Below, piece after piece: positions 1 to 37,735 of a DNA stretch of 64,000 nucleotides (the stretch's first letter is position 1; each line of letters opens with the position of its first letter). Where the stretch lies: assembly GCA_950295325.1 (NCBI GenBank), contig OX485807.1, forward strand, positions 22,541,666 through 22,605,665, read 5' to 3'. The DNA comes from Polytrichum commune. Taxonomy: Eukaryota; Streptophyta; Polytrichopsida; Polytrichales; Polytrichaceae. The position numbers were made by a program, and so were the translations under genes. The notes under the pieces were generated by a model. That model had not been told where the DNA came from and made no database searches. It worked only from the letters and a program-made list of their open reading frames with translations.

Positions 1-281
1 ATCAGAGACATTTCCTTCAAATTAAATTCCTACCTACCAACAGTAGGTTTTCCAATTAAAGACTGCATCTTCATTAGTGCAATCATATGAGCATTTTGAA
101 CATGTAAGCTCAGCACATGAATTCAGTTCGTGTGAAATTTGATATGGCAATAAATGTAGTGCTCACACACATACTAGGATCTTCCAAATGCCCATCAATG
201 AAGCAGTAAGCTCAAGAGCAGCACCCTGCTAACACCACACATCCAACCAATTCACAAAAGATGTCAGGAAAGAAGTAGTAC

Positions 282-5145: not shown

Positions 5146-8010
5146 ACCTACCTGCCTTGGATCATTCATACACTCCGCGCTCCGCCTTGGATACCCTTTC
5201 CCTTGCGGCCTACGTGGTACACACTACCTCCTCCATTTGGATGTATTTTCAAGCTAAGGGAGGGCGCCCATTGGTTCACCTTGGAGCATGATCTTGGAAT
5301 TTGGGGTACGAGGTGGTGTTATGGGATTGGGATAGAGGACGCCTTTCACATAGCGTAAGTCGTTTCTTTTTTTCCATATCTTCAATCTAGATCGCTGATC
5401 TTCACGATTTGAAGGTCCAGAAGGAGAGGGTGTCAAAATGGTTATGTCCGGTAACTCTTGTCGGTCCTCCCCATGCCTTGCATGTTACCTAGTACCAAAT
5501 TAACAACTAGACTGATGTTAAATAAACCTTGAATTGGTATGTTTAGATTAGGTTAAATTATGATAAATAAAGCAAGAAATTTTTTAACCACCCACCTACC
5601 TGCCTTGGATCATTCGTACATTCAGACTTGGATCCCTTTTCCCTTGTGGCCTACGTGGTACACACTACCTCGATTGGATGTATTTTCAAGCTCAAAGGGA
5701 GGGTGCCTACTGGTTCATCTTGATGCATAACCATTTGGGGTACAAGGTGGTGTTATGGGATTGGGATAGAGGACACCTTTCACACAGCATAACTCTCTCC
5801 TTTCTTCCCATGTCCTCAATCTAGGCCGCCGATCTTCACAATCCAACGGTCCATAAGGAGAGGGTGTCATAATGGTTATGTCCGGTGACCTTTCTTGGTC
5901 CTCCCCGGGCCTTGAAGGTTACCCGGTACCAAATTAACAACTAAACCGATGTTAAATAGACCTTGAATTGGTATGTTTTGATTAGGTTAGATTATGATGA
6001 ATAAAGCCAAAAAAATAATTAACCACCCACCTACCTACCTTGGATCATTCGTACAGTCTGCCTTGGATCATGCGGCTTGCGTGGTACACACTACCTCCAT
6101 TTGGATGTATTTTCAAGCTCAAGGGAGAGCGCCCATTGGTTCACCTTGGTTCACCTTGGTGCACAACCATTTGGGGTACGAGGCGGTGTTATAAGATTGG
6201 GGTACGTAGAGGACACCTTTCACATAGTGTAACTCTCTCCTTCCTTCCCATGTTCTCAATCTAAGCCGCTGATCTTCATGATTCAACGGTCCAGAAGGAG
6301 AGGGTGTCAAAATGGTTATGTCCGGTAACTCTTCTTGGTCCTCCTTGGGCCTTGAAGGTTACTTAGTACCAAATGAACAACTAAATTGATGTTAAATAGA
6401 CCTTGAATTGGTATGTTTAGATTAGGTTGAATTATGATGAATAAAGCAAGAAACTTTTAAACCACCCACCTACCTACCTTGGATCATTCATACATTATGC
6501 CTTGGATCCCTTTTCCCTTGTGGCCTACGTTACACACTACCTCAATATGGATGTATTTTCAAACTCAAGGGAGGGCGCCCATTGGTTCATCTTGGTGCAT
6601 AACCATTTAGGGTACAAGATGGTGTTATGGGATTGGGGTAGAAGACGCTTTTCACATAGCGTAACCCTCTCCCTTCTTCCCATGCCCTTAATCTAGGCCA
6701 TCAATCTTCACGATGTGACAGTCCATAAGGAGAGGGTGTTGAAATGGTTGTGTCCAATAACTCTTCTTGGTCCTCCCCGGGCCTTGAAGGTTACCGAATA
6801 CCAAATTTAAAAACTACATTGATGTAAAAGCCATACGAGTACATGTAAACCAAGGAACAACTAGCTAAGCGTCTGCAGCTAGAAAAAAAAGGTTTTTTTT
6901 TTTTAATCAAGGTGTCAACTATAAAAAAGGGTATACCAATTTTTATTGGCTCGCTCATTGTAAATGTCGTGGAGGAAACAAAGAAAAGTAGATGTTAAAT
7001 AGACCTTGAATTGGTATGTCTAGGTTAGGCTAAATTATGATGAATAAAGCAAGAAACCCTTTCAACCACCCACCTACCCACCTTGGATCGTTCATACATT
7101 CCGCCTTGGATGCCTTCTCCTTGGGGGCCTATGTGGGGCATTACCTACATACATAAACATCCGATTTGGATGTGTCTTTGAGCTCATGGGAGGGCGCCTG
7201 GTGATCTTGGTACATTACCCATTTAACACACGAGGTGGCGTTAGGGGATTGGGGAAGAGGATGCCTTCCACATAGCATAACCACCTTCCCTTCCCATGCC
7301 CTCAGTCTAGGTCGTTGATCTTCGTGATTTAAAGGTCTAGATAAAGGGTGTCAAGATGGTTATGTCCATAAACTATTCTTGGTCCTCTCGAGCCTTGAAG
7401 GTTACCTAGTACTAAATTAACAATTAAATCAAGATCAAGGACGTTGAATTGGTATGTTTAGGTTAACTTAAATTATGATAGATAAGCAAAGATCCTTTCA
7501 ACTACCCACCTACCTACCTTGGATCCCTTTTCCTTGGGGCCTACGTGGTACATGACCTACTTTAGATCCAATTTGGATGTGTGTTGAAGCTCAAAAATGC
7601 CATTGATATTGGTACATAACCCATCTAGTGTTTGAGGTGGTGTTTAAGGATTCAAAATGAGAATGATTAACCTACAACTCTTTTTTGGGGGGGGGAAGAT
7701 CCTGAGGGGATGATGATTCATAGCAGCAACCATGGAGATTGAAAACGATGTTTGTTGTGCATAGCATGGAGATTGTAATTTTTAACCAAATTAACACATA
7801 AGTCATGTTAAAGACTTTGAGTAAGTCTCTTAAGGTTCAATTAAGATGAATCATGTACAAACCTTTAGGCTGCCCACGTACCTACCTTGGATCATTCATA
7901 TGCTCCACCTTGGATCCCATTCTTTGCGGCCTACAAGGTACATTACCTACTTGCATTCGATTCGGATGTATCTTGAAGCTCAAGGGTGTCGTGATCTTAG
8001 TACATAACCA
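5146..8010. repeat. tandem satellite, about seven copies of a ~435-bp unit
   Basis: Copies start at about 5148, 5590, 6022, 6463, 7066, 7503 and 7871 with CCACCTACCTTGGATCATTC or close variants. They share landmarks in order: CCTACGTGGTACACACTACC, TTTGGATGTATTTTCAAGC, AACCATTTGGGGTACGAGG, GGAGAGGGTGTCAAAATGG, GGTCCTCC, ACCTTGAATTGGTATGTTTAG. The periods are about 442, 432, 441, 603, 437 and 368. The long one holds an insertion. Divergence rises to the right, and the last two copies are degraded. Short open frames inside are by-products of the repeat. Confidence 0.93.
6826..6990. mobile_element. 165-bp insertion in one satellite copy, flanked by GATGT duplication
   Basis: The fourth satellite copy is interrupted exactly where the others read TTGATGTTAAATAG. 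GATGT occurs on both sides (6821-6825 and 6991-6995), so this is a 5-bp target duplication around a 165-bp insert. The insert begins AAAAGCC, ends GAAAAGTA, has no clear terminal inverted repeats and contains an A-run followed by a T-run. Class unknown; a small non-autonomous element or solo fragment. Confidence 0.6.
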
Positions 8011-25764: not shown

Positions 25765-27805
25765 CTACTCATTACCTGCCTCTTTTGATTCCAACATCTT
25801 AATAAAATTGCCAACAATCTGCATACCATTTTGAGTGCGAATGCTCTCTGGGTGAAACTGTACTCCTTGGATATGTTTGTGGATACGATGACGAACACCC
25901 ATTACAAGTCCATCTTCAGTCCTTGCCGTGACCTCAAGCTGATCAGCAGGAAAGGTGTCTTCTTCAATCACCAAGCTATGGTAGCGGCATGCTATAAAGG
26001 GACTGCATCACACAGAACACATATATAGAATCAAATTCTACTGTTTAATGCCCTGACGTATACACCTTACACCTTACAACAGAACTCGAAGAACACAAGA
26101 TGGTGAAGCCTAGAAGTGACACATCAAGATTTTTTGATGATAGCCGACGGAAACAGATGGCAAAAAACATGAGCAAATCAGCTGTTTGGTGCAAGATTGG
26201 ACAATCTCAATCAATAGATCAGCCTGTTGATAAGGAAATCACTCTACAATCTGTAGAAGTTTGAACTGAAATGGAAAAAGATCCAGGACAATGCATCGGC
26301 TACAAGTCCAGTGACAACTTTTCAACCAACAGGGTAAATGTTCCAATCTTCTATGTTAGAAGCTGCTAACAGATGGCCTACACCAAATCGAATAGGATAA
26401 AAGGGATATTACGAAGAAATGAGGGCAAGCAGAGAAACGAGAACCAAAGAGAAGAACACTTGAAATGATTCAACTCTCAAAAGCATGAACCTGTAGGATC
26501 GTTCACAAAAACCACCTTGCACAGATGTATAATATCTTCAATAAACCCTATACCCTCCTATGGATAACCTCCCCAGGTCAGACCAGAAACAAAAGTACAA
26601 AGAGTAACGGGATGGGCTTTCTCACACAAAGATTGACTTGGAAAATCCATAATTTCTTTCAGGTATCCCTTATACACATACATACTGTTGTAGGAACACC
26701 TGCGATAAATTTCGAAGTCGTATAACATCTTCCTTAAACCCTAAACCCTCGCACAAATAATCTCCCCAGGTCAGACCAGAAACAAATGTAGAAAGAGTAC
26801 AGAGATGGGATTAGATTTCTCACACAAACATTGACTTGAAAATCACATTAACAATACAAGAGTTTGAATGTATCCCTCACATACATCAAACTCTTATAGG
26901 CAAACCAGCGAGCGATTTTGGGGATAACCCTCATATGAATAACCTCCCCAGGTCAGACCAGAAACAAAAGTAGAAAGAGTAGAGGGATGGGATAAGACTT
27001 CTCACACAAATATTCGCAAAAAAATTCATGTATCCTTACAAATATTCTTACTCTTAAAGGAAACCTGTAAGAAAATTCATAAAAGGTGTAATTTCTTGCA
27101 ATAACCCTAAACCCTCGTAATGTATATCCTCCCCAGGTGAGACCAGAAACAGAAGCACACAGAGTAAGAGTGACGGGATTCGAGAAAGTACTTGGGAAGA
27201 CCATCAAGAAGTCCAGGCTCCCCATGCTCGTCGTAGAAAACAGGGGATGTTTTCCCGTGCATAACCCCATGCGGAGCACGCACAATCTTCCCCCCAAACG
27301 CTTCCCCCATACACTGGAGGCCCATACAAACCCCAAACAACGGAACACTCGGGCCGAGCTCCCTGACGACCTGCAGGGAAATTCCAGAATCTTGTGGCGT
27401 CCCTGGTCCAGGAGAGATCAAAATCCCCCGGGGCTTCTTGGCTCTCAGCTCCTCCACGGTGATTTCATCGTTCCTGTACACCTCGATCTCGCATCCCAAG
27501 TCCCCCAGGTACTGCACCAAGTTGTAGGTGAAACTGTCGTAGTTATCAATCACCACCACCGGCTGTTTGACCTCCTTCCCTCTCACCACCGCCGCTCCAA
27601 CTCGCTCTTCTCCCACGGCCACCGCTCGAACCTGGACCAAATCCCGAGTGACGGCCTTCAAATGGGGTGTGGAGAGGCTCTGGGAGAAGCGGATTACAAG
27701 AGGAGACGAAGCTGTGAGACGGTGACGATGCCCCTGCGAAGCGTTGATATTGCGGCAGGCAATCTTGGGGCATGGAATTCGACCAAGAATGATGGAAGTG
27801 GCCAT
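25765..27805 (-). CDS. ASB1: anthranilate synthase beta subunit (glutamine amidotransferase), plastid-targeted
   Basis: Supplies ammonia from glutamine to the alpha subunit, which makes anthranilate from chorismate, the first step of tryptophan synthesis in plastids. Two exons: 27805-27192 and 26002-25765, joined at donor AA|GTACTT and acceptor GCAG|TCCC to give an in-frame LPNPFIACRYHSLVIE. Predicted length 283 residues. Residues 1 to about 75 are Ser/Arg/Ala-rich with no acidic start, like a chloroplast transit peptide. VVVIDNYDSFTYNLVQYLG (about 83-101) opens the class I amidotransferase domain, and SPGPGTPQDSG follows. The catalytic Cys is C160 in GVCMGLQC, with His255 and Glu257 in GVQFHPES. 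All triad residues are present and the frame is intact, so the gene is probably functional. Stop TAG at 25765. The single intron is 1189 bp and filled with tandem repeats. Confidence 0.95.
26530..27190. repeat. four-copy tandem repeat (~187 bp) inside the anthranilate synthase intron
   Basis: The landmark CCCCAGGTCAGACCAGAAAC recurs at about 26571, 26764, 26946 and 27131 (last copy CCCCAGGTGAGACC). Each is preceded by AACCCTAAACCCTC-like sequence and followed by an AAAGAGTA..GGGATGGG..TCTCACACAAA block. Spacing is 193, 182 and 185 bp. The copy nearest exon 1 ends within a few bases of the splice donor, so the array may have grown from the exon 1-intron junction. Not coding. Confidence 0.9.
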
Positions 27806-28540: not shown

Positions 28541-29129
28541 ATTATATTAAGTATATAATGTCTCTATGTGTTTTTGTCTTCCAGGCACATTTCCCCTACC
28601 CCCTCTCCTCATGCAAGAGAGAAATATTGTATACAAGGGGATCTCTCATTCATCTGATAGAAAACCCTAAAATAGCATGTGGTCCAAAAGCTATTTTGGA
28701 GTTTATTTGACACCATAATTGTCTTCAAAGACTCTGAAATAGTGTACATGGAGATATTTGAGATGTCGCAACCACAAACATATAGGGGTCAAAGTTTTAC
28801 GTTGGATGGAGGAGAGGTACGGCAAATGGAAAGTTCACTTTATGATGCATGACCACAAATGACGATTTATGGGTCCGGTAATGGGACATGCCACTATTTC
28901 TTTCATCTTCATAAGACATGAATAATAATGAAGAACAATAGAAGCTTTATATAAGGTCATACTCGTGCTTCAACCCTACTTTTGCTAGGATATGCAATAG
29001 AATACTCCAATTATCTATAACTAGGTTTGCAAGAGATCAAAGCACTAGGTGTTCAACTCATTAAGTAGATACTCTTGGTTTTGCAAATTATACAAGGCCA
29101 TCTATCATGTGTGAGCAAGAATCCTCTTC
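28541..29129. other. intergenic, no supportable gene
   Basis: AT-rich; nothing recognised before composition changes sharply at about 29130. Confidence 0.45.
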
Positions 29130-29269
29130 CCCCTTGAATGCGTCCTAGTCCGGGGGGGAGAATCCTTCTTCACACATTCTAGGTCATAGTCGGGGTTCGG
29201 GGGGTGGTCGTGCGGGGGGTAGGTATCTTAGGTTAATTCTCCCTTTTGCCGTATCCATCCCCGAATCTA

Positions 29270-29746
29270 CACTAATGCCCTTTAGTGTTGGGGGGGTTCT
29301 CGTCTCTCGGGCCCCCTTGGACGGCTTACCGGGGCCTCGTTGGGTTATTTCCCAACGAGTTAGTCCTAGTGTTATCTTTCACTAGGTTTTAGAACGGGCT
29401 TTGTTCTAAGGGCAAATATTCGGTTGTCCTCTTTATTTATGTATAAATTGAGATTTTTTACACATCTCCCGGTAGGTGGTTGGTGCCGTCCTTGGTTCGG
29501 GACGGTCCTCACCTCCGCCGAGACGGGTCGTGGACCCCGACCTAGTCTTAACTTTATTAAATGATTGACTAAGGCCCGGAGGCGGATTTGAGAACCTAAG
29601 CTGATCTAGACCTAGTTATATGGGTGGCCGGACGGATGGCCTTATTGCCTATCCGTCCATCCTCCTGAACTCTTAGAGTAAGCACTACTCTAAGCCGTAA
29701 AAGACAGGCCTTTTACGGCTACTTTATTACTCTAAGATATTTGGAT
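29270..29746 (-). other. 3' UTR of the retrotransposon: chain of about eight hairpins
   Basis: Perfect or near-perfect inverted repeats follow one another: 29693-29720 (11-bp stem, 6-nt loop), 29672-29694 (9-bp), 29630-29658 (8-bp), 29486-29505 (6-7-bp), 29389-29409 (7-bp), 29365-29386 (7-bp), 29336-29359 (9-bp) and 29270-29287 (6-bp). R2-type reverse transcriptases bind a structured 3' UTR to prime cDNA synthesis, so this is a natural role here (inference). Further GC-rich sequence with an imperfect direct repeat extends to about 29130. Confidence 0.75.
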
Positions 29747-32700
29747 TTACGGCGGTGCTCCTTGCGCCCATCTAGCGGTGTTATTTAGCACTTTGTAGTA
29801 ATATTTGTCGATTTGTGTCCGGTTCGGCATTTGAGGTTGTTCCGCCGTCGCTTCTCGTGGTTGGACCTCCCACTCTTCACGTTGCCGTAGATTCTCACAA
29901 TATTTGAAATACTCCCTTCTAAGCCATCGGCAATGTGGGACCCACGTTCCCGCCGCTTCATTCGGGAAATTTCGACGTCGGTTGTATAGCTGATCGCGTA
30001 CTATCCACAACTTGTGGTTGTGATTGCCTATCGCCTGGATGATCTGATGGATCACCCCGGACGTTTGCGCTTGAGGTTGAATTTCGCGCAGGACTTGTTT
30101 AATCGAGGCCGGTATGGTTCCCATTACTCCAACTACCATCGCGCGGAACCGCACGTCACTATGCGGGAACCTGCGGCATAATACATCGACTAGCTCGTTG
30201 TACTTATCCGTTTTTTGCCATTTAGCCAATGCGATTGCATTGTCCATTGTAACCGAGATCTCTCATATCTCGATTTGATGGTTTCGTCGAATCATCTGCC
30301 CGTCGTCGCCTCGCCTCGCCGGGGGCTGATATTGAAATATCAGATCGGGCCTTCGACTTGTGATTTGGGCATCATTCAAGATGTCCGGGAATATTAGGGC
30401 ATTTTCTGCCGGAACGCCCCACGTATTCTCGGCCATCCAAATTTGGAACGAGTCGAGCCTCCCGAGTTTACATTTCTCCGCTCATAATTTTATCCAACAG
30501 TAAAATTCGCAAACTATCTTGTCGTGGTGTTTGGTACGGATTGCCTCGTATAACGGATATCTACACCTGCAAAATAGGTGTTTGACTGTTTCTCTCTTCC
30601 GTTCCCGGCAATTGTCATAGAAAATTTCACCGCGTCTCATCCAGGTTGTTACTACCGATTTTACCGGTAGTACGTTGAACGCCGTGGCGATCATCGTTTT
30701 GTATTCATGCATGCTTAGGCTCGCGGTCCGGATCCATTTTCGACTTCCCGCGGCGTGGGCCCCATTATGCGCAAACTGCTTCGGGGCGATATTCTCGACA
30801 ATTTCTAATTTGTCTCGATGGTGTACCGCCTCTTTCGTATACGCCTTCAGTTCTAACTTCTTTTGCGCATTTGGACCCGTCACGTCGCTGAATAATCCAA
30901 TGACTTTTACCCTTTCAAGCCCTTCGAGGTTCCCGTTGCGGATGTCCACCTTAAATGGGCCATCCGCCGTGATTCTTACCCCTAGGGCTTGACATGCGTG
31001 GTATAAAAATGCCACGTAAGTCCGGCCTTTACCATTGCCCTGCCATCCGATTTTACGCCTTGCCTTAGGGTCCGTCCGGGTTGGCTCCCAATACGCCAAA
31101 CTTTTAGTCTTCGTATTCTTGTCGTGTACGGTGTTGCCGTACGCCAAGTCCTAGTCCATGAAAATCTTGCCTTGCGGGTCCCACGGAATTCCAGCCGCCA
31201 CGCGTGCCTCTTCCACCATATGCCGAAATAGGGTTCGTATCTGCGGGTCTAGATTGTTTACGAACGCGTATGCCGTATTTACCAACATTGAATCCCGTAT
31301 TGTCCGGAAATTTGGTAACCTTAACCCGAGACGATCCGTGCTCATATTGAATTGTTGTTTGCCCCCTCTTCGAGATGGCCATCCCAAAATCCGCCTCGCC
31401 ACGCCGTGTTGGATCCTGGTTGCCTCGTCCAGGATATAATTCGGCGGCGGGTTCATCGGGCAAAGGATTTCTATCAACGGCCGCGCTGCCTGAGATAAGA
31501 AATCCAATTTCCCCGCGTAATGGAGTTTCTGGATGCGCGGGGTATCTAATTGAGTCACCCTCGCCTTAAATTTGGCGAGGGCCCGCTTATCTTCGTGGGC
31601 CTCCCGCCGTTCGTCATCCAGGCCCCGCGACAACGACGACTTTTGATTGGTCTTTGCGGATGCGGGGGCCTTATGTTTACCTAGATACTTAAAGGCTTCG
31701 TAACCCGCGAGCTGCGGGATTGCCTCGCCACAAAGGTTGAAGTTGGCTAGTTCCACATCTTCCCCTCGTTCCCGTACAAACTCCCGGCCCCAATACGGAC
31801 ATTTATGGATGCCGAAACGCATTCTCGACCACTCGGCGAATTCGCTTTGAATTGTCGTCATTTTACGTATTTCCTCCTCCGTATCGGCAACGCGCACTTC
31901 GTCATCCATATAATCCATTCATTTCACCTCGATTTCCGCTATCGCATATTCACGGCATTCCCGTTCAATCCACTTCGCCACCGTTTCCTTAACGACCGCG
32001 AAGGTCAAAGGACTGATGGTATTACCTTGTGCTACCCCCCTCGTTATCGTAATCGTTTCTGATGCCTCGCCATTCACGATTAATCTTACTTGATTACCCA
32101 GTGCCGTCTCTTTCCACATGTTACGTAGAATCGGACAGATGGGTAAAATATCAATCGTTTTTACGATCAAACCGAGGGGTAGCGAGGTAAACGCTCCCTT
32201 AAAGTCGGTAAATAGGCAATATAGGTTGTTTTTCCTATGCCTATTATCCTCCAAAACTGCCGTAAGTTTGAGGTTCGCATCCCGACAGCCTGCCACTCCC
32301 GGATTTACCCCCATCTGAAAAGTAAAGGGCGTATATATATACGTCCCCCGAACCGTTTCCCGCATCGTCTCGTACGCCACGAAAGTGATATACTTGCTGA
32401 AAATCTTAAAGAACACCGACAATAAAGTTACCGGCCGTAAATTTGGAGCTTGTGTATTTGGTGCTCCGGGTTTCGGGATATAGGACACGAATCCTAGCTT
32501 ATAGGCTGGGTAGATTAAACCTAGTTTAGTCTACAAGTTAAACGTGTGGATTAGCCACATTATGAGGGACATCTTCTCGCATTGCCGTAAAGTCCGATAC
32601 GTGATTTGATCGTATCCCGGCCCCCAGTTACCATCACCCTCTCGTAAAATCCGCCACAACTTCTTTATTACTGGGTCGTTTACGTCATTTTCAAGCGGCT

Positions 32701-33456
32701 CGATGCGGATTGGGGTCCTTGGCGCAGCTTCATTCTGCCATAATGCCTTTAAATATTCGTCGACCCTCGGGAACGGGGCGACTTGCTCCGCCGTTACAAC
32801 TTCTTCCGTAAAACTGGGGCGGGCGAAGTCGTATAACTCCGCCGTCGTGGCCTCCACATTGGTCCGACTCGCCCCCCCCCCCCCTCGTACATCCAGCGGT
32901 GGAACTTGTGTACCGAGCCGATGTATCTTCGGTTCAATGCGGCTTTACCTTCGCGGCGTAATCCGTTCACAGGGTGTTCGTCTTCGTGTGGCTCCTCTGC
33001 GTGGACCCCCCGCATCGACGTCGCCGGCCAGTGTTTTACCGTCCCGAAGATTCTAGTTGCCGCTAGGTTGAGGGCCCACCGTACTACCATATCTACCTTC
33101 TCCCCTTTAATGGCATCCATTTCCCTTTCTGCCTTTGCCAACTGTTTAAGGCCATATTTAAATATGGCCTTAGTTACACCTTTAAACCGTTTCCGCGTTT
33201 TTGGTTCAAAATTCTTTACCATCGCTGCCGGTCGAAAACGTAAATCTTCGATGCTTTCATTATTCCGTAAGATCATTGCCATCTTCGTCTTGAAGTCGGC
33301 AATGATCGTGTTATCATTTGTTATATCTCCTACTACCGGTTTTGTGGTCCATCGCATAGCCCGTCCAATTTGGCTATGCGTGGCCCGCCATTCCCTATTC
33401 TTAGGCATCCAGTCTCCCTCCCGAAGGTCGATCCATGCTCTCTCCTCCAGTGTCAT
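29747..33456 (-). pseudogene. reverse transcriptase / restriction-like endonuclease polyprotein, broken
   Basis: The frame starts at ATG 33456 (MTLEERAWIDLREGDW). It runs about 200 residues without recognised domain, shifts by one base at a 13-C run (32872-32884), then stays in one frame to TAA at 29747. Reverse transcriptase blocks: YIPKPG with NLRPVTLLS, FTDFKGAF (motif A Asp at 32204-32206), RGVAQGNTISPLTF (motif B) and YMDD (Asp pair at 31901-31906). The thumb has LDEATRIQHGVARRILGWP and LGLRLPNF. Then an R2-like zinc motif, CRERKRETVKHLFCRCR followed by KHHDKIV, in which the second Cys appears replaced by Arg. The endonuclease shows RRPDLIF and, about 25 residues on, EISVTMDN...KWQKTDKYNELV. 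In-frame stops: TAG 32531, TGA 31919, TAG 31151, TGA 30482, TGA 30263. Not functional as it stands. Confidence 0.85.
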
Positions 33457-33749
33457 CTTACCTCATACCTACATCCCACTTTCTTTTGGTTAGTAATTTC
33501 CGATTTTTACGCAACTACGCCTAGGTTGGTCCTTAGTGTACTCTCACTAACCCCGCCTACTCCTAGGCTAGTTCAAGGTATCTCCTCAGTCTCGTTATGA
33601 TTTCTCGCAAGTATGCGGTATCTATAATTTCGGTAATTCCCCGCTTGTGGTAACTTGGTAATTCCCCTCGCGTGGTAACTTTTTCCGGTAACTCCCTCCT
33701 CTATTGTTTCCCCTTTGCCTTTGGTTTTGCTTCTTTCCCCTCCTTGTCC

Positions 33750-34219
33750 CTCATTCCACCCGAAGGGAGGAATGAGTAACATTTTACCGTCCTCTTTGTC
33801 TCTATTGTTTCCCCTTAACCTTCTATCTTGCTTCAATTTACCTCCTTTGCCTCATTCCTGCCGGAGGGAGGAATGGGTAGCATGTAGCCGTCTCTTTGCC
33901 CTCATTCCTCCCGCGGGGAGGAATGAGTGGCATTTTACCTTCCTCTTTGCCTTTATTGTTTCCCCCTTAACCTTCTATCTTTGCTTCGTTTTACCTCCTT
34001 TACCTCATTCCTCCCGGAGGGAGGAATAGGTAGCATGTAGCCGTCTCTTTGCCCTCATTCCTCCCGCGGGGAGGAATGAGTGGCATTTTACCTTCTTTGC
34101 CTTTATTGTTTCCCCCTTAACCTTCTATCTTTGCTTCGTTTTACCTCCTTTACCTCATTCCTCCCGGAGGGAGGAATGAGTAGCATGTAGCCGTCTCTTT
34201 GCCCTCATTCCTCCCGAAG
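33750..34219 (-). repeat. tandem hairpin repeats in the 5' leader of the retrotransposon
   Basis: Seven hairpins built on CTCATTCCTCCC, a 3-nt spacer and GGGAGGAATGAG begin at 33750, 33851, 33901, 34004, 34054, 34154 and 34204; the last is a half. Stems are 12 bp when intact, and the spacer alternates mainly GGA and GCG. Two hairpins plus spacer sequence (GTAGCCGTCTCTTTGC; TTGTTTCCCCCTTAACC) make a unit of 150-153 bp repeated about three times. Confidence 0.92.
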
Positions 34220-34419
34220 CCTTTTACTAGTCCTTATGTTTATCGAAATTCCTCTTAGGGTGGCAACATTATTAGTTGCTCCCTTTCTTATTCATTTCGT
34301 AAATTCTCTTCCACCTCCCTTGATATCTTGAGCATATTAACCTCTCCCTCGGGTACGGGATGGTTCTACTTAGCGGGGCGTCTTTTCTTCCTCTTTGTTT
34401 AAGTGATTGTTATTTTCAT

Positions 34420-34500
34420 CGGCCTGGGGGGGCCTCGAACTTGGATTGTTCGGACGCACTTTAGACCGCGGAGACAGGCTAGGCGCTATGACCACCTCCG
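34420..34500 (-). other. short GC-rich segment with weak pol III box-like motifs
   Basis: Lies between the 28S-like piece and the hairpin leader. On the minus strand it holds TAGCGCCTAGCCTG (weakly A-box-like) and, about 50 nt on, AAGTTCGAGGCC (B-box-like). GCGGAG/CTCCGC can form a stem. No tRNA cloverleaf could be drawn: the T stem and acceptor stem do not pair. It could be a decayed SINE head or simply element leader. Confidence 0.2.
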
Positions 34501-34508
34501 CATCAATG

Positions 34509-34553
<45 letters not shown>
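34501..34553 (-). pseudogene. fragment of 28S/25S rRNA, sense orientation relative to the retrotransposon
   Basis: Bases 34510-34553 read, on the minus strand, GAGCTGGGTTTAGACCGTCG then TGAGACAGGTTAGTTTTACC then CTAC. This is the conserved eukaryotic large-subunit rRNA stretch in the 3' third of the molecule, upstream of the sarcin-ricin loop. A TGATG (34501-34505) that follows in rRNA is present after a 4-nt interruption. Neither side continues as rRNA, so this is an isolated piece, not a gene. Confidence 0.8.
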
Positions 34554-34836
34554 GGGGTTTAAACACATGCATCTTCGTTCCATTTAATTATGGGTGAAAT
34601 GGTGTGTATAACACCCTTTTCCTTTATTAATCTTGCAAGCATTTAAGAGTACTTGCATTACGATACAACATCAATGCGGCACATCATCTAATTCCTACCA
34701 TGATTAGCCCCGGTTCTTAGTTGTCTAGTCCTCACTGGGGTGATGATCTCAGCTTTGGAAAAGGTCTCCATAGCACCTTAACTTCACACTGTAGCTCCCT
34801 CTCCCGACGAACACTACACCACCATTACTTGCCACC

Positions 34837-35182: not shown

Positions 35183-36005
35183 TGCTTCCTCTTCTAGGCC
35201 CCTTAGCACTACTTCTTGTGACATTAATTGAACTTTGTCGCAGTCGCCTCCACAGATTCTTGAGGGATCAGCAGATTCAACACGATCTTGACCTCGGAAG
35301 CTCGATCCCTTGTAGGTTGATTGCCTAGCCTCCAGCTGAACTTTTGGTTTTTTCTCTTATCTTTTGGGTAATTCTCACCTTTTTTACTTGCTTCTTATTT
35401 CCAATATATTTCCTATTAGGATTAATTAACATGTGAGTACGGCCTTTTGGGCTCACACCATGTGGTGTCAGACCCTTAGCCCTAAACCCTTCCATGGGTA
35501 CAATCAAGTGTTACCTTCATCAATGTTAAAAATGCCTTAAGCGTTGTGAACATTGGTATTCCTTGATGCATGAAGTGCATCAATGTTAAATATCAATCTA
35601 GGCTCTCATATAGCTTCTGAGAATGACAAGCAAACTATACTTTGGTAATTGCACCATGGTGAAGGTAGCACTAGAGGAAATCATGTCCAAATCAACCATG
35701 TGCCATGGTGCTAGTAACGACCATGTTCACTGTTGTTATGACTAGAACTGTTATTTTGATTGTTGTTTCCGTTGGAATGTGGGTGATGACAACCCATTTC
35801 AAATTCGACTTGGTTTTGGTTGATACAGTTGCAATGTCAACCTTTATGGCTAAGGACTGCCGTTCCAATAGCACTTAAGTAGACATTTATGTTGACTGGG
35901 TACACTTATTCGATGGAGGGTGACCTGCGAGTTGCCGCTCCTCGCCGGTAAGGGTGGGACACAGGAGGGTCTACGCCTGTCCTGGCCGCCCGAGCCCAGC
36001 CCGAG
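35183..36005. other. intergenic, partly GC-rich, no supportable gene
   Basis: Nothing coding was recognised. At 35953-36020 a GTGGGACACAGGAGG segment and its inverse CCTCCTATGTCCCAC flank a GC-rich spacer, leading into the next foldback. Confidence 0.45.
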
Positions 36006-36350
36006 CCTCCTATGTCCCACCACTAACCAGCTGGTACACTAAATATAATATTTAGTGTCACCAATTATAAATGTCTTGCTGCATACTAATTGTAAACCGC
36101 GGTGTAGGTTCACCAACACTAAATGTTAACCCAACATTATTTATCATTCACAAGGAATGATAAATAATGTCAGGTTAACAATTGATCTTGGTGACACTAC
36201 ACCACAATTTACAATTAGCACGCAGCAAGACAATTTTAATTGGTGACACTACACCACAGTTTACAATTAGCACGCAGCAAGACAATTTTAATTGGTGACA
36301 CTAAATATTTTATTTAGTGTACCAACTGGTTAGTGGCGGGACACAGGAGG
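36006..36350. mobile_element. foldback element with extended inverted repeats (family A-like core)
   Basis: The core TACACTAAATATAATATTTAGTGTCACCAATT (36035 on) mirrors AATTGGTGACACTAAATATTTTATTTAGTGTA (to 36321). The inverted repeat continues outward through CCAGCTGG/CCAACTGG, ACTAACC/GGTTAGT and the CCTCCTATGTCCC/GGGACACAGGAGG blocks, about 65 bp per arm. The inner right half is itself duplicated: GGTGACACTACACCAC followed by TTTACAATTAGCACGCAGCA, twice. A central TCATTC..GAATGATAAATAATG palindrome completes the fold. No coding capacity. Confidence 0.85.
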
Positions 36351-36854
36351 CCGGGGATGGGCTTGGGTGGGCACGAGGTTGGGGCTGGGCTCAGGCGGGC
36401 AGGAGAGGCGCATGCCCTCTTGTGTCATGCCCATAGGGGCGAGGGTTGCCGCTCTTGGTTGCAATTTGTATTGGTCTTGGTGGTTGCCCTATGTGGGTTG
36501 TCTTCCACCATTTCTAGATATGGTTGCCACCCCTCACATGTCCACTTTTCAAGACTTTGTTGACGTTTTCTTTGGTGGACGTCGTCACTCCTCGGGTGGC
36601 ATCTTTTGTCACGGCTTATTAAGAATAACTTCAACACCTTAACCCTAAACCTTAAAACTTATATGTCATTGGCATCATCTATCTCCCTCCCTCTACTGTT
36701 GTTATTCTCCCTCCGTCCCTCTTCCCTTTGATACACATGTTGTTGGTGCTTTTGGTTGTAGTGACCATTCTTCATGGTGACTTCTCTTCTTCCTTTTTCA
36801 TTTGTGTTTTTTTGAGGTTCTTTAGATATGATTTCGGATGTCAAATGTGTGATG
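36351..36854. other. intergenic, no supportable gene
   Basis: Overlapping open frames on both strands look like chance; no domains. Confidence 0.4.
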
Positions 36855-37735
36855 ATGTTCAATTGTTGACGCATATTTTGAAGCCCAAAAGCTTTCATTT
36901 TGTGGGTTTTGGTTTTTTGAAGGTGCAGGAGGTTAAGGGTGTGCTAATGTACAATTGTTGATGCATATTTTGAAGACAAGAACCCAATGTTTGCAGGGTT
37001 TTGGTCTTTTGAAGTCGTAGTAGGTCAAATGTGTATTGATGTTCAATTGTTGATAAATATTTTGAAGCCCAAAAGCTTTAGTCTTTTGAAGGCGTAGGAG
37101 GCCAAATGTGTGCCGAATTTGAATGTTTAAGGCATATTTTGAAGCTCAAGTACTATTTTTTTGGTTGGTTTTGATTTTTTGAAGGTGTGAGAGGTCAAAT
37201 GTGTGCTGATTTCAAAATGTTTGAGGCGTGTTTTGAAGCCCAAAAGATTTTATTTTGTGGGTTTTGGTCTTTTGCAATTGTAGAAGGTCAAATGTGTGTT
37301 GATGTTTGGTTGTTGATATAGATTTTGAAGCCCAAGAGCTTTAGCTTTGTGGATTTAGGTCTTTTGAAGGCATAGAGGTCAACTGTGTTTGTGGCATATT
37401 TTGAAGCCCAAGAACTTTGTTTTTGTGAGTTTTAGCCTTTTGAAGTTGTAGACGGTCAAATGTGTAGTAATGTTCAATCATTGATGCACAAAAAACTTTA
37501 GGTTTGTGGTTATTGTTTTTTTGAAGGTGTAGGAGGTTAAATGTGTGTTGATGTTGACTATTTGATGCATATTTTGAAGTGCAAATGATATATTTTTGTT
37601 GGTTTTGGTTTCGGTTTCTTGAAGGTGTAGGGATTAAATGTATGCAAATGTTGAATATTTGATACATGTTTTGAAGCATAAGTGTTATATTCTGTAGGTG
37701 ATAATAGGTAGAGAATGTCAAGGACATTAATGCAA
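36855..37735. repeat. minisatellite, about ten copies of an ~88-93-bp unit
   Basis: The landmark TTGATGCATATTTTGAAGCCC or a variant recurs at about 36862, 36955, 37046, 37127, 37218, 37310, 37390, 37479, 37560 and 37656. Each is followed by AAAAGCTTT..TTTGTGGGTTTTGG, TTTTTTGAAGGTGTAGGAGG and TCAAATGTGTG. Copies are diverged and AT-rich. Frames across it are repeat by-products. Confidence 0.88.

Follow-up and report, generated by a model that had tools for sequence, protein, structure and literature searches.

A multi-copy retrotransposon family of Polytrichum commune with a restriction-like endonuclease and pieces of 28S rRNA at the ends of several copies

Tools for insertion into ribosomal DNA (rDNA), and likewise the standard model of target-primed reverse transcription, rest on site-specific retrotransposons with a restriction-like endonuclease (RLE). 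To our knowledge, R2 has been reported only from animals. Many R2 RNAs keep 28S sequence at the 5' end, the RNA being cut within 28S as far as 36 nt upstream (PMC3774820). Rotifer R9, likewise an RLE element, sits at a different 28S site (PMC5035012) and has a duplication of unusual length, 126 bp (PMC6895275), and the NeSL-clade elements LIN9, LIN24 and LIN26 of planaria, as well as Utopia, are aimed at multicopy RNA genes, 28S and U2 (PMC4640811). Utopia, which carries N-terminal zinc fingers, is reported from Amoebozoa, SAR and Opisthokonta (PMC4640811). In the green lineage, RLE is described from Dualen/RandI of green algae (PMC4438587), of which Dualen carries an apurinic/apyrimidinic endonuclease (APE) together with the RLE (PMC4640811), and a 2022 review gives L1 and RTE as the superfamilies of long interspersed nuclear elements (LINEs) of plants (PMC9033089). 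The window analysed here is a stretch of 64,000 nucleotides from Polytrichum commune (assembly GCA_950295325.1, contig OX485807.1, positions 22,541,666 to 22,605,665), and its minus strand holds, at 34508-29186, one full-length, decayed retrotransposon without long terminal repeats (non-LTR). An earlier note had put an R2-superclade-like element at 29130..34555; the element is there, while its limits had to be narrowed, as they included about 56 nt of 3' flank and 45 nt of 28S rRNA. The scraps of 28S at the ends of several copies suggest a retrotransposon that targets ribosomal genes, a kind so far described mainly from animals. We put the probability at about 0.7 that this is a multi-copy family of RLE non-LTR elements with one open reading frame (ORF), which inserts into 28S rDNA, is co-transcribed with it, and occasionally inserts off target.

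The family resembles R2 in having one ORF, a reverse transcriptase (RT), a CCHC motif, a C-terminal RLE, a link to 28S, and 28S kept at the 5' end. Unlike R2, it apparently uses another 28S site; it has no N-terminal zinc finger, and its RT falls outside the R2 clade. We take the R2 site to be several hundred bases upstream in 28S of the junctions seen in this family. The remaining systems were compared by their descriptions in the papers named above. R9 shares the RLE, a 28S site and a long duplication, which would be about 68 bp here against 126 bp in R9, whose host is an animal. Utopia differs by its N-terminal zinc fingers. Dualen/RandI likewise brings an RLE into the green lineage, whereas our family is without an APE domain, and the L1 and RTE elements of plants share a non-LTR RT but are of APE type.

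The first line of evidence is the 28S sequence itself. The 5' end of the window element is adjoined by 45 nt of eukaryotic 28S rRNA (34553-34509, minus strand; GAGCTGGG...ACCCTACT), which were absent from the earlier note. The best Rfam match in the element region was LSU_rRNA_eukarya at 34546-34523, identical at 24 of 24 positions, with 22.6 bits and E 0.029 against a gathering score of 50; the corresponding matches in the family loci L023, L031 and L032 were also below that score. The exact 45-mer was found in 14 loci of other collections, in 28S context, where it is preceded by ...AGGGAACGT (just ACGT where the contig starts there) and followed by a AGTACGARAGGAAC-like stretch. Pieces of 28S with at least 39 bits were present in 11 of 24 family loci, and 20 block-shuffled sets reached at most 25.6 bits. 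Outer ends of the pieces vary by copy, while inner ends are fixed. Four copies (window, L023, L024, L031) have the identical 5' junction CCCTACT/CATTGAT. All five 28S pieces at 3' ends start at GTTCACCC after ...GAC(T/A)(A/T)T, where one or two T before the G are assignable to either element or 28S; their lengths are 20 nt in L029, 29 in L031, 58 in L032, 26 in L034 and 40 in L037. L029, L031 and L034 carry 28S at both ends, and therefore identical 28S bases are repeated, in L031 29 nt of them on the two sides.

Pieced together from several dispersed copies, these ends suggest how the element would live in rDNA. The enzyme would nick the bottom strand of the 28S gene at GGATT/GTTCACCC, and reverse transcription of the 3' untranslated region (UTR) would be primed at that nick. 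The cut in the top strand would fall about 68 bp downstream of it, at ACCCTACT/GATGA. In a canonical insertion, 28S would then stand on the left up to CCCTACT and on the right from GTTCACCC, with GTTCACCC...ACCCTACT repeated on both sides as a target-site duplication of ~68 bp, and the junctions expected for an rDNA-seated copy would be ...TTTTACCCTACT/CATTGATG and ...CCCCGACTAT/GTTCACCC. The element would be transcribed as part of the pre-rRNA, and the occasional insertion of a 28S-element-28S transcript elsewhere would account for the dispersed copies whose 28S ends are short, probably including the one in the window.

Several observations weigh against this. No 28S piece was found in 12 of the 24 loci, and L040 has a weak one of 30 bits (missing ends not counted). 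In a second subgroup (L029, L030, L034, L036) the 28S ends 9-20 nt earlier and different 5' sequence follows. Four of nine copies with a visible 3' terminus (window, L023, L033, L035) do not run on into 28S, and none of the 24 loci examined was seen to lie inside an intact 28S gene, the rDNA of the genome being outside the search. An HDV-like (hepatitis delta virus-like) ribozyme was not found in 34300-34600 with a strict double-pseudoknot descriptor (40 shuffles gave a mean of 0.125 solutions), nor by Rfam at the 5' end. Finally, seven of nine copies tested (window, L023, L031, L032, L033, L035, L037) have no flanking repeat longer than 10 nt; for the window copy, a target-site duplication was accordingly rejected. 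Since all 24 loci are dispersed on large contigs and 13 of them have no clear 28S piece, it may also be that the element is not rDNA-specific today, and that its ends captured 28S once and the pieces are now inherited. We hold this to be unlikely, because captured internal sequence would end alike, whereas the outer ends vary (pieces of 45, 50, 72 and 76 nt within a single 5' subgroup, and of 20 to 58 nt among the 3' ones) at a fixed inner junction. In addition, the 28S pieces of the window copy, L023, L024, L031 and L032 match the reference 28S stretch at 98-100% identity, as would suit pieces copied anew from rDNA time and again.

The best support for dispersed copies made from transcripts with 28S at both ends comes from L029. 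In this ectopic, dispersed copy a 91-bp direct repeat of 92% identity flanks the whole 28S-element-28S unit, which implies arrival as one unit; on its 5' side the target-site repeat is separated from the 28S leader by a CCTAAA-rich, telomere-like filler (559-595 of the locus). In L034 there is a repeat of 21 bp, which is not flush with the ends. The seven copies without visible duplication would suit another explanation, namely that rDNA pieces with the element were scattered as DNA by recombination or repair and not by reverse transcription. That appears quite improbable to us, given that no 28S flank in the observed copies exceeds 76 nt, that the outer 28S ends vary as RNA ends would, and that the duplication in L029 encloses the entire unit.

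The genome comprises 407.8 Mb in 64 contigs, seven of which are of 42-78 Mb. An RT query on it gave 150 scored matches out of 700 candidates. Of these, 33 rows at E <= 1.4e-12 (38-100% identity) belong to the family and fall in 24 places, one of which (on contig C50) is apparently a duplicate of another; one further short family fragment stood lower among the scored matches. The 24 loci examined are the window and two fetched sets of 20 and three, that is, all places except the duplicate, plus the short fragment, and the copy number is a lower bound. The many copies anticipated in the earlier note are thus present, and they are spread over all seven large contigs; because of this, and since host genes flank the window element, a contaminant contig was ruled out. 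The other 116 rows have 25-34% identity; all ten that were fetched matched the RT of human L1, and the remainder were taken to be alike. As a side observation, match scores on the unplaced contigs C50 and C24 are identical to those of stretches of C4 and C3, so that some unplaced contigs look like leftover duplicates.

In 5.8 billion proteins, searched with residues 300-1100, the relatives P0001 (84% identity), P0002 (68%) and P0003 (66%, over 73% of the stretch) were retrieved; P0001 (1239 amino acids) and P0002 (1236) have uninterrupted ORFs, and P0003 is 701 amino acids long. With tblastn, P0001 matched at 84% over both halves and P0002 at 64-66%, and by these sequence comparisons the similarity is far beyond chance. 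Two more searches added 13 family protein fragments with 59-90% identity to P0001. In genome-contig and viral-contig collections, protein searches gave 41 and 47 pattern matches, of which none was confirmed as a relative. Alignment with P0001 and P0002 delimits a single ORF of ~1239 codons in the window (33456-29747, minus strand; TAA at 29749-29747). Read with X at stops, it has 1239 residues, five in-frame stops (32533-32531, 31921-31919, 31153-31151, 30484-30482 and 30265-30263) and a single change of frame, which falls in a G run near 32884-32872; the window copy is dead. Between close copies (window, L023, L027, L031; five pairs, 1223-1234 codons) the ratio of nonsynonymous to synonymous substitution rates (dN/dS) was 0.16-0.40, and the ORF has therefore been kept by selection. 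Thirteen pairs were computed in total, of which seven had saturated dS and L029-L034 gave 0.25.

The N-terminal part (33456-32671, minus strand), about 262 residues before the RT, has no cysteine and no Pfam domain. In five members, including two without their true N-terminus, the first 200-262 residues are free of cysteine; hence there is no N-terminal zinc finger, as had been noted earlier. If the family does target rDNA, it would have to find its site through the CCHC/RLE part or through pairing of RNA and DNA via the 28S ends. A Myb domain was not found there either, judged solely by the absent Pfam match. The RT (32629-31679, minus strand; limits by tblastn with P0005) matched Pfam RVT_1 with E 3.9e-10 in the window and 1.4e-15 in P0001, as the sole Pfam domain above cut-off; zf-RVT stayed below cut-off in P0001-P0003. 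The motifs listed in the earlier note were all recovered at their places on the minus strand: FTDFKGAF at 32212-32189, AQGNTISP at 32032-32009 and YMDD at 31912-31901 in the RT, an R2-like C..C/H/C motif as a zinc-knuckle stretch at 30619-30569, and KHHDKI (30532-30515), RRPDLIF (30355-30335), EISV (from 30262) and KTDKY (30214-30200) behind it. YMDD is common to the retrieved proteins spanning it (P0001, P0002, P0003, P0006, P0012, P0013, P0018), with YIDD in P0010. The CCHC knuckle and R/KHDK motif together occupy 30630-30505; the first of the four zinc ligands is lost in the window copy and all four are kept in P0001-P0003. Across the family the C-terminal order is C-x2-C-x8-H-x4-C, R/KHDK, RRPDLIF, E(I/V)SV and K-x2-KY.

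The restriction-like endonuclease (30481-30150, minus strand; outer limits approximate) was recognised by hhalign, where a profile of P0001-P0003 matched one of R2Bm, R2Tg, P0004 and P0005 with a probability of 96.5% and a score of 69.8. Thirty column shuffles reached 23.3 at most, and five C-termini of APE-type elements gave 0.3-11%. With each reference taken by itself, P0004 gave 60% and P0005 40%, but R2Bm gave 3% and R2Tg 2%, no better than the APE controls, and P0003 had no PDB relative by sequence alone; the R2 values and the missing PDB relative speak for a divergent L1-type (APE) lineage with its RLE likeness due to chance. Structure adds weaker, supporting and not decisive evidence for the C-terminal RLE proposed earlier. 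AlphaFold models were poor, with a mean pLDDT (predicted local distance difference test) of 36 for P0003 and 34 for an N-terminal/RT model, of which the latter was not used; from P0003 the RLE stretch alone was taken (pLDDT 53-78 by blocks of ten). No Foldseek match of that stretch fell below E 0.001. The first match was an R2 protein (E 0.017, probability 0.84, root-mean-square deviation 18 A over 261 columns), and those that followed included cap-snatching endonucleases of the PD-(D/E)XK type (52 residues at about 2 A), interspersed with folds of the cofilin type. An APE domain (PF03372) was absent from P0001 and P0002 in Pfam.

The RT gives a less settled picture. A 17-row tree shows the family as a long-branched clade with 100/100 support and R2 as a separate 98/97 clade. 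A second tree, of 25 rows, takes in six family copies that have diverged, together with six L1 elements out of the ten fetched from the same genome, and is without P0006, P0007, P0023 and P0024; in it the family, the L1s and R2 each form a 100/100 clade. The named RLE references in both trees are three R2s; R4, NeSL, HERO, CRE, Dualen and RTE were not included. Holding the family with the RLE rows costs 0.7 and 7.2 log units (17 and 25 rows; approximately unbiased, AU, p 0.363 and 0.235), and holding it with the L1 rows costs 6.1 and 5.5 (AU p 0.17 and 0.317), so that neither grouping is rejected. Against PDB the RT scored human L1 ORF2 above R2 (8e-16 vs 7e-10; with a profile 1.4e-18 vs 2.6e-14). 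The nearest full-length proteins outside the family, P0004 (1e-11) and P0005 (1.4e-7), were both judged RLE-type, and a separate search with the family profile found an APE-type protein at 6e-4. The RT is a lineage of its own, outside R2 and outside the L1s of the genome, and may stand on the RLE or on the L1 side. The separate clade proposed earlier is borne out, while membership of the R2 superclade is not shown: the RT is outside the R2 clade, and the AU values permit the RLE and L1 sides alike, even though the family is clear of the six L1s. Despite the PDB scores and the AU values for grouping with L1, a divergent L1-type (APE) lineage is very hard to reconcile with the missing APE domain, the RLE profile match and the separate L1 clade, and we give it hardly any weight.

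Among the matches listed in the open-licence literature, with Repbase and subscription journals outside this scope, we found no RLE element of a land plant. As far as that literature and the excerpts of PMC9033089, PMC5035012, PMC4640811 and PMC4438587 reach, RLE elements would be new for land plants. We lean, by a small degree, towards a new deep RLE clade, which would be the first from a land plant and also the first plant retrotransposon aimed at rDNA, with a non-R2 28S site, a stagger of ~68 bp and no N-terminal zinc finger. If this is true, targeting of rRNA genes arose or survived in plants, and a LINE superfamily is added to the plant list given as L1 and RTE only (PMC9033089). With its different 28S site, long stagger and lack of a zinc finger, such a lineage on the plant side would put to the test which part of the protein selects the target, and plant genome engineering would have a native rDNA integrator to examine.

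Outside the ORF, the element has two long untranslated regions. The 5' UTR (34508-33457, minus strand), recognised by its repeats, its fold and homologous sequence in L023 and L031, contains hairpin-bearing repeats of ~150 bp at about 33699-34216, each with the palindrome ATTCCTCCC..GGGAGGAAT; between-copy matches overlap many times over in this repeat region. Base pairing is possible between the initial ~60 nt of this UTR and the 28S piece (34380-34560, 28S strand and first element bases, fold z -3.35), and this pairing may serve as an RNA-processing structure. A tRNA-like promoter at the 5' end was rejected, as ARAGORN found no tRNA in the window. The 3' UTR (29746-29186, minus strand) is strongly structured (29090-29750, fold z -8.1, 20 shuffles) and ends with ...CCCCGACTAT; L023, L027 and L031 match it with 97-98% identity over ~550-569 nt, and its terminus is common to L023, L029, L031, L032, L034 and L037. 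Neither a second copy of the element nor an apparent second 28S piece was found in the window, the remaining 28S matches being weak or simple-sequence. The observed/expected ratio of CpG is 1.32 in the ORF (29747-33456) vs about 0.5 in the host flanks, which is odd for an already broken copy and may mean that the element arrived recently or comes from a compartment with different methylation.

The element lies between host genes with GATase and Aha1_N domains, and the adjoining GATase gene presumably resembles plant anthranilate synthase beta. Some minor observations were made at the copies and in the flanks. In L032 a SCARNA8-like match below gathering score (6396-6527, stored strand) overlaps the 3' 28S piece of the family copy, and in L030 a U5 snRNA match (91-209, minus strand; Rfam RF00020, above gathering score) lies about 1.3 kb upstream of the copy. 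Directly 3' of the window element, the flank at 29110-29180 contains a long hairpin, ATGTGTGAAGAAGGATTCTCC / GGGGGAAGAGGATTCTTGCTCACACAT, perhaps a part of the insertion target. Beside the GATase gene, four copies of ~70 bp (CCTCCCCAGGTCAGACCAGAAACA...) with a spacing of 182-193 bp occupy 26539-27167, and upstream of the element, at 35980-36376 and 36823-37611, there is a 137-bp inverted repeat of 86% identity together with a seven-copy repeat of ~93 bp.

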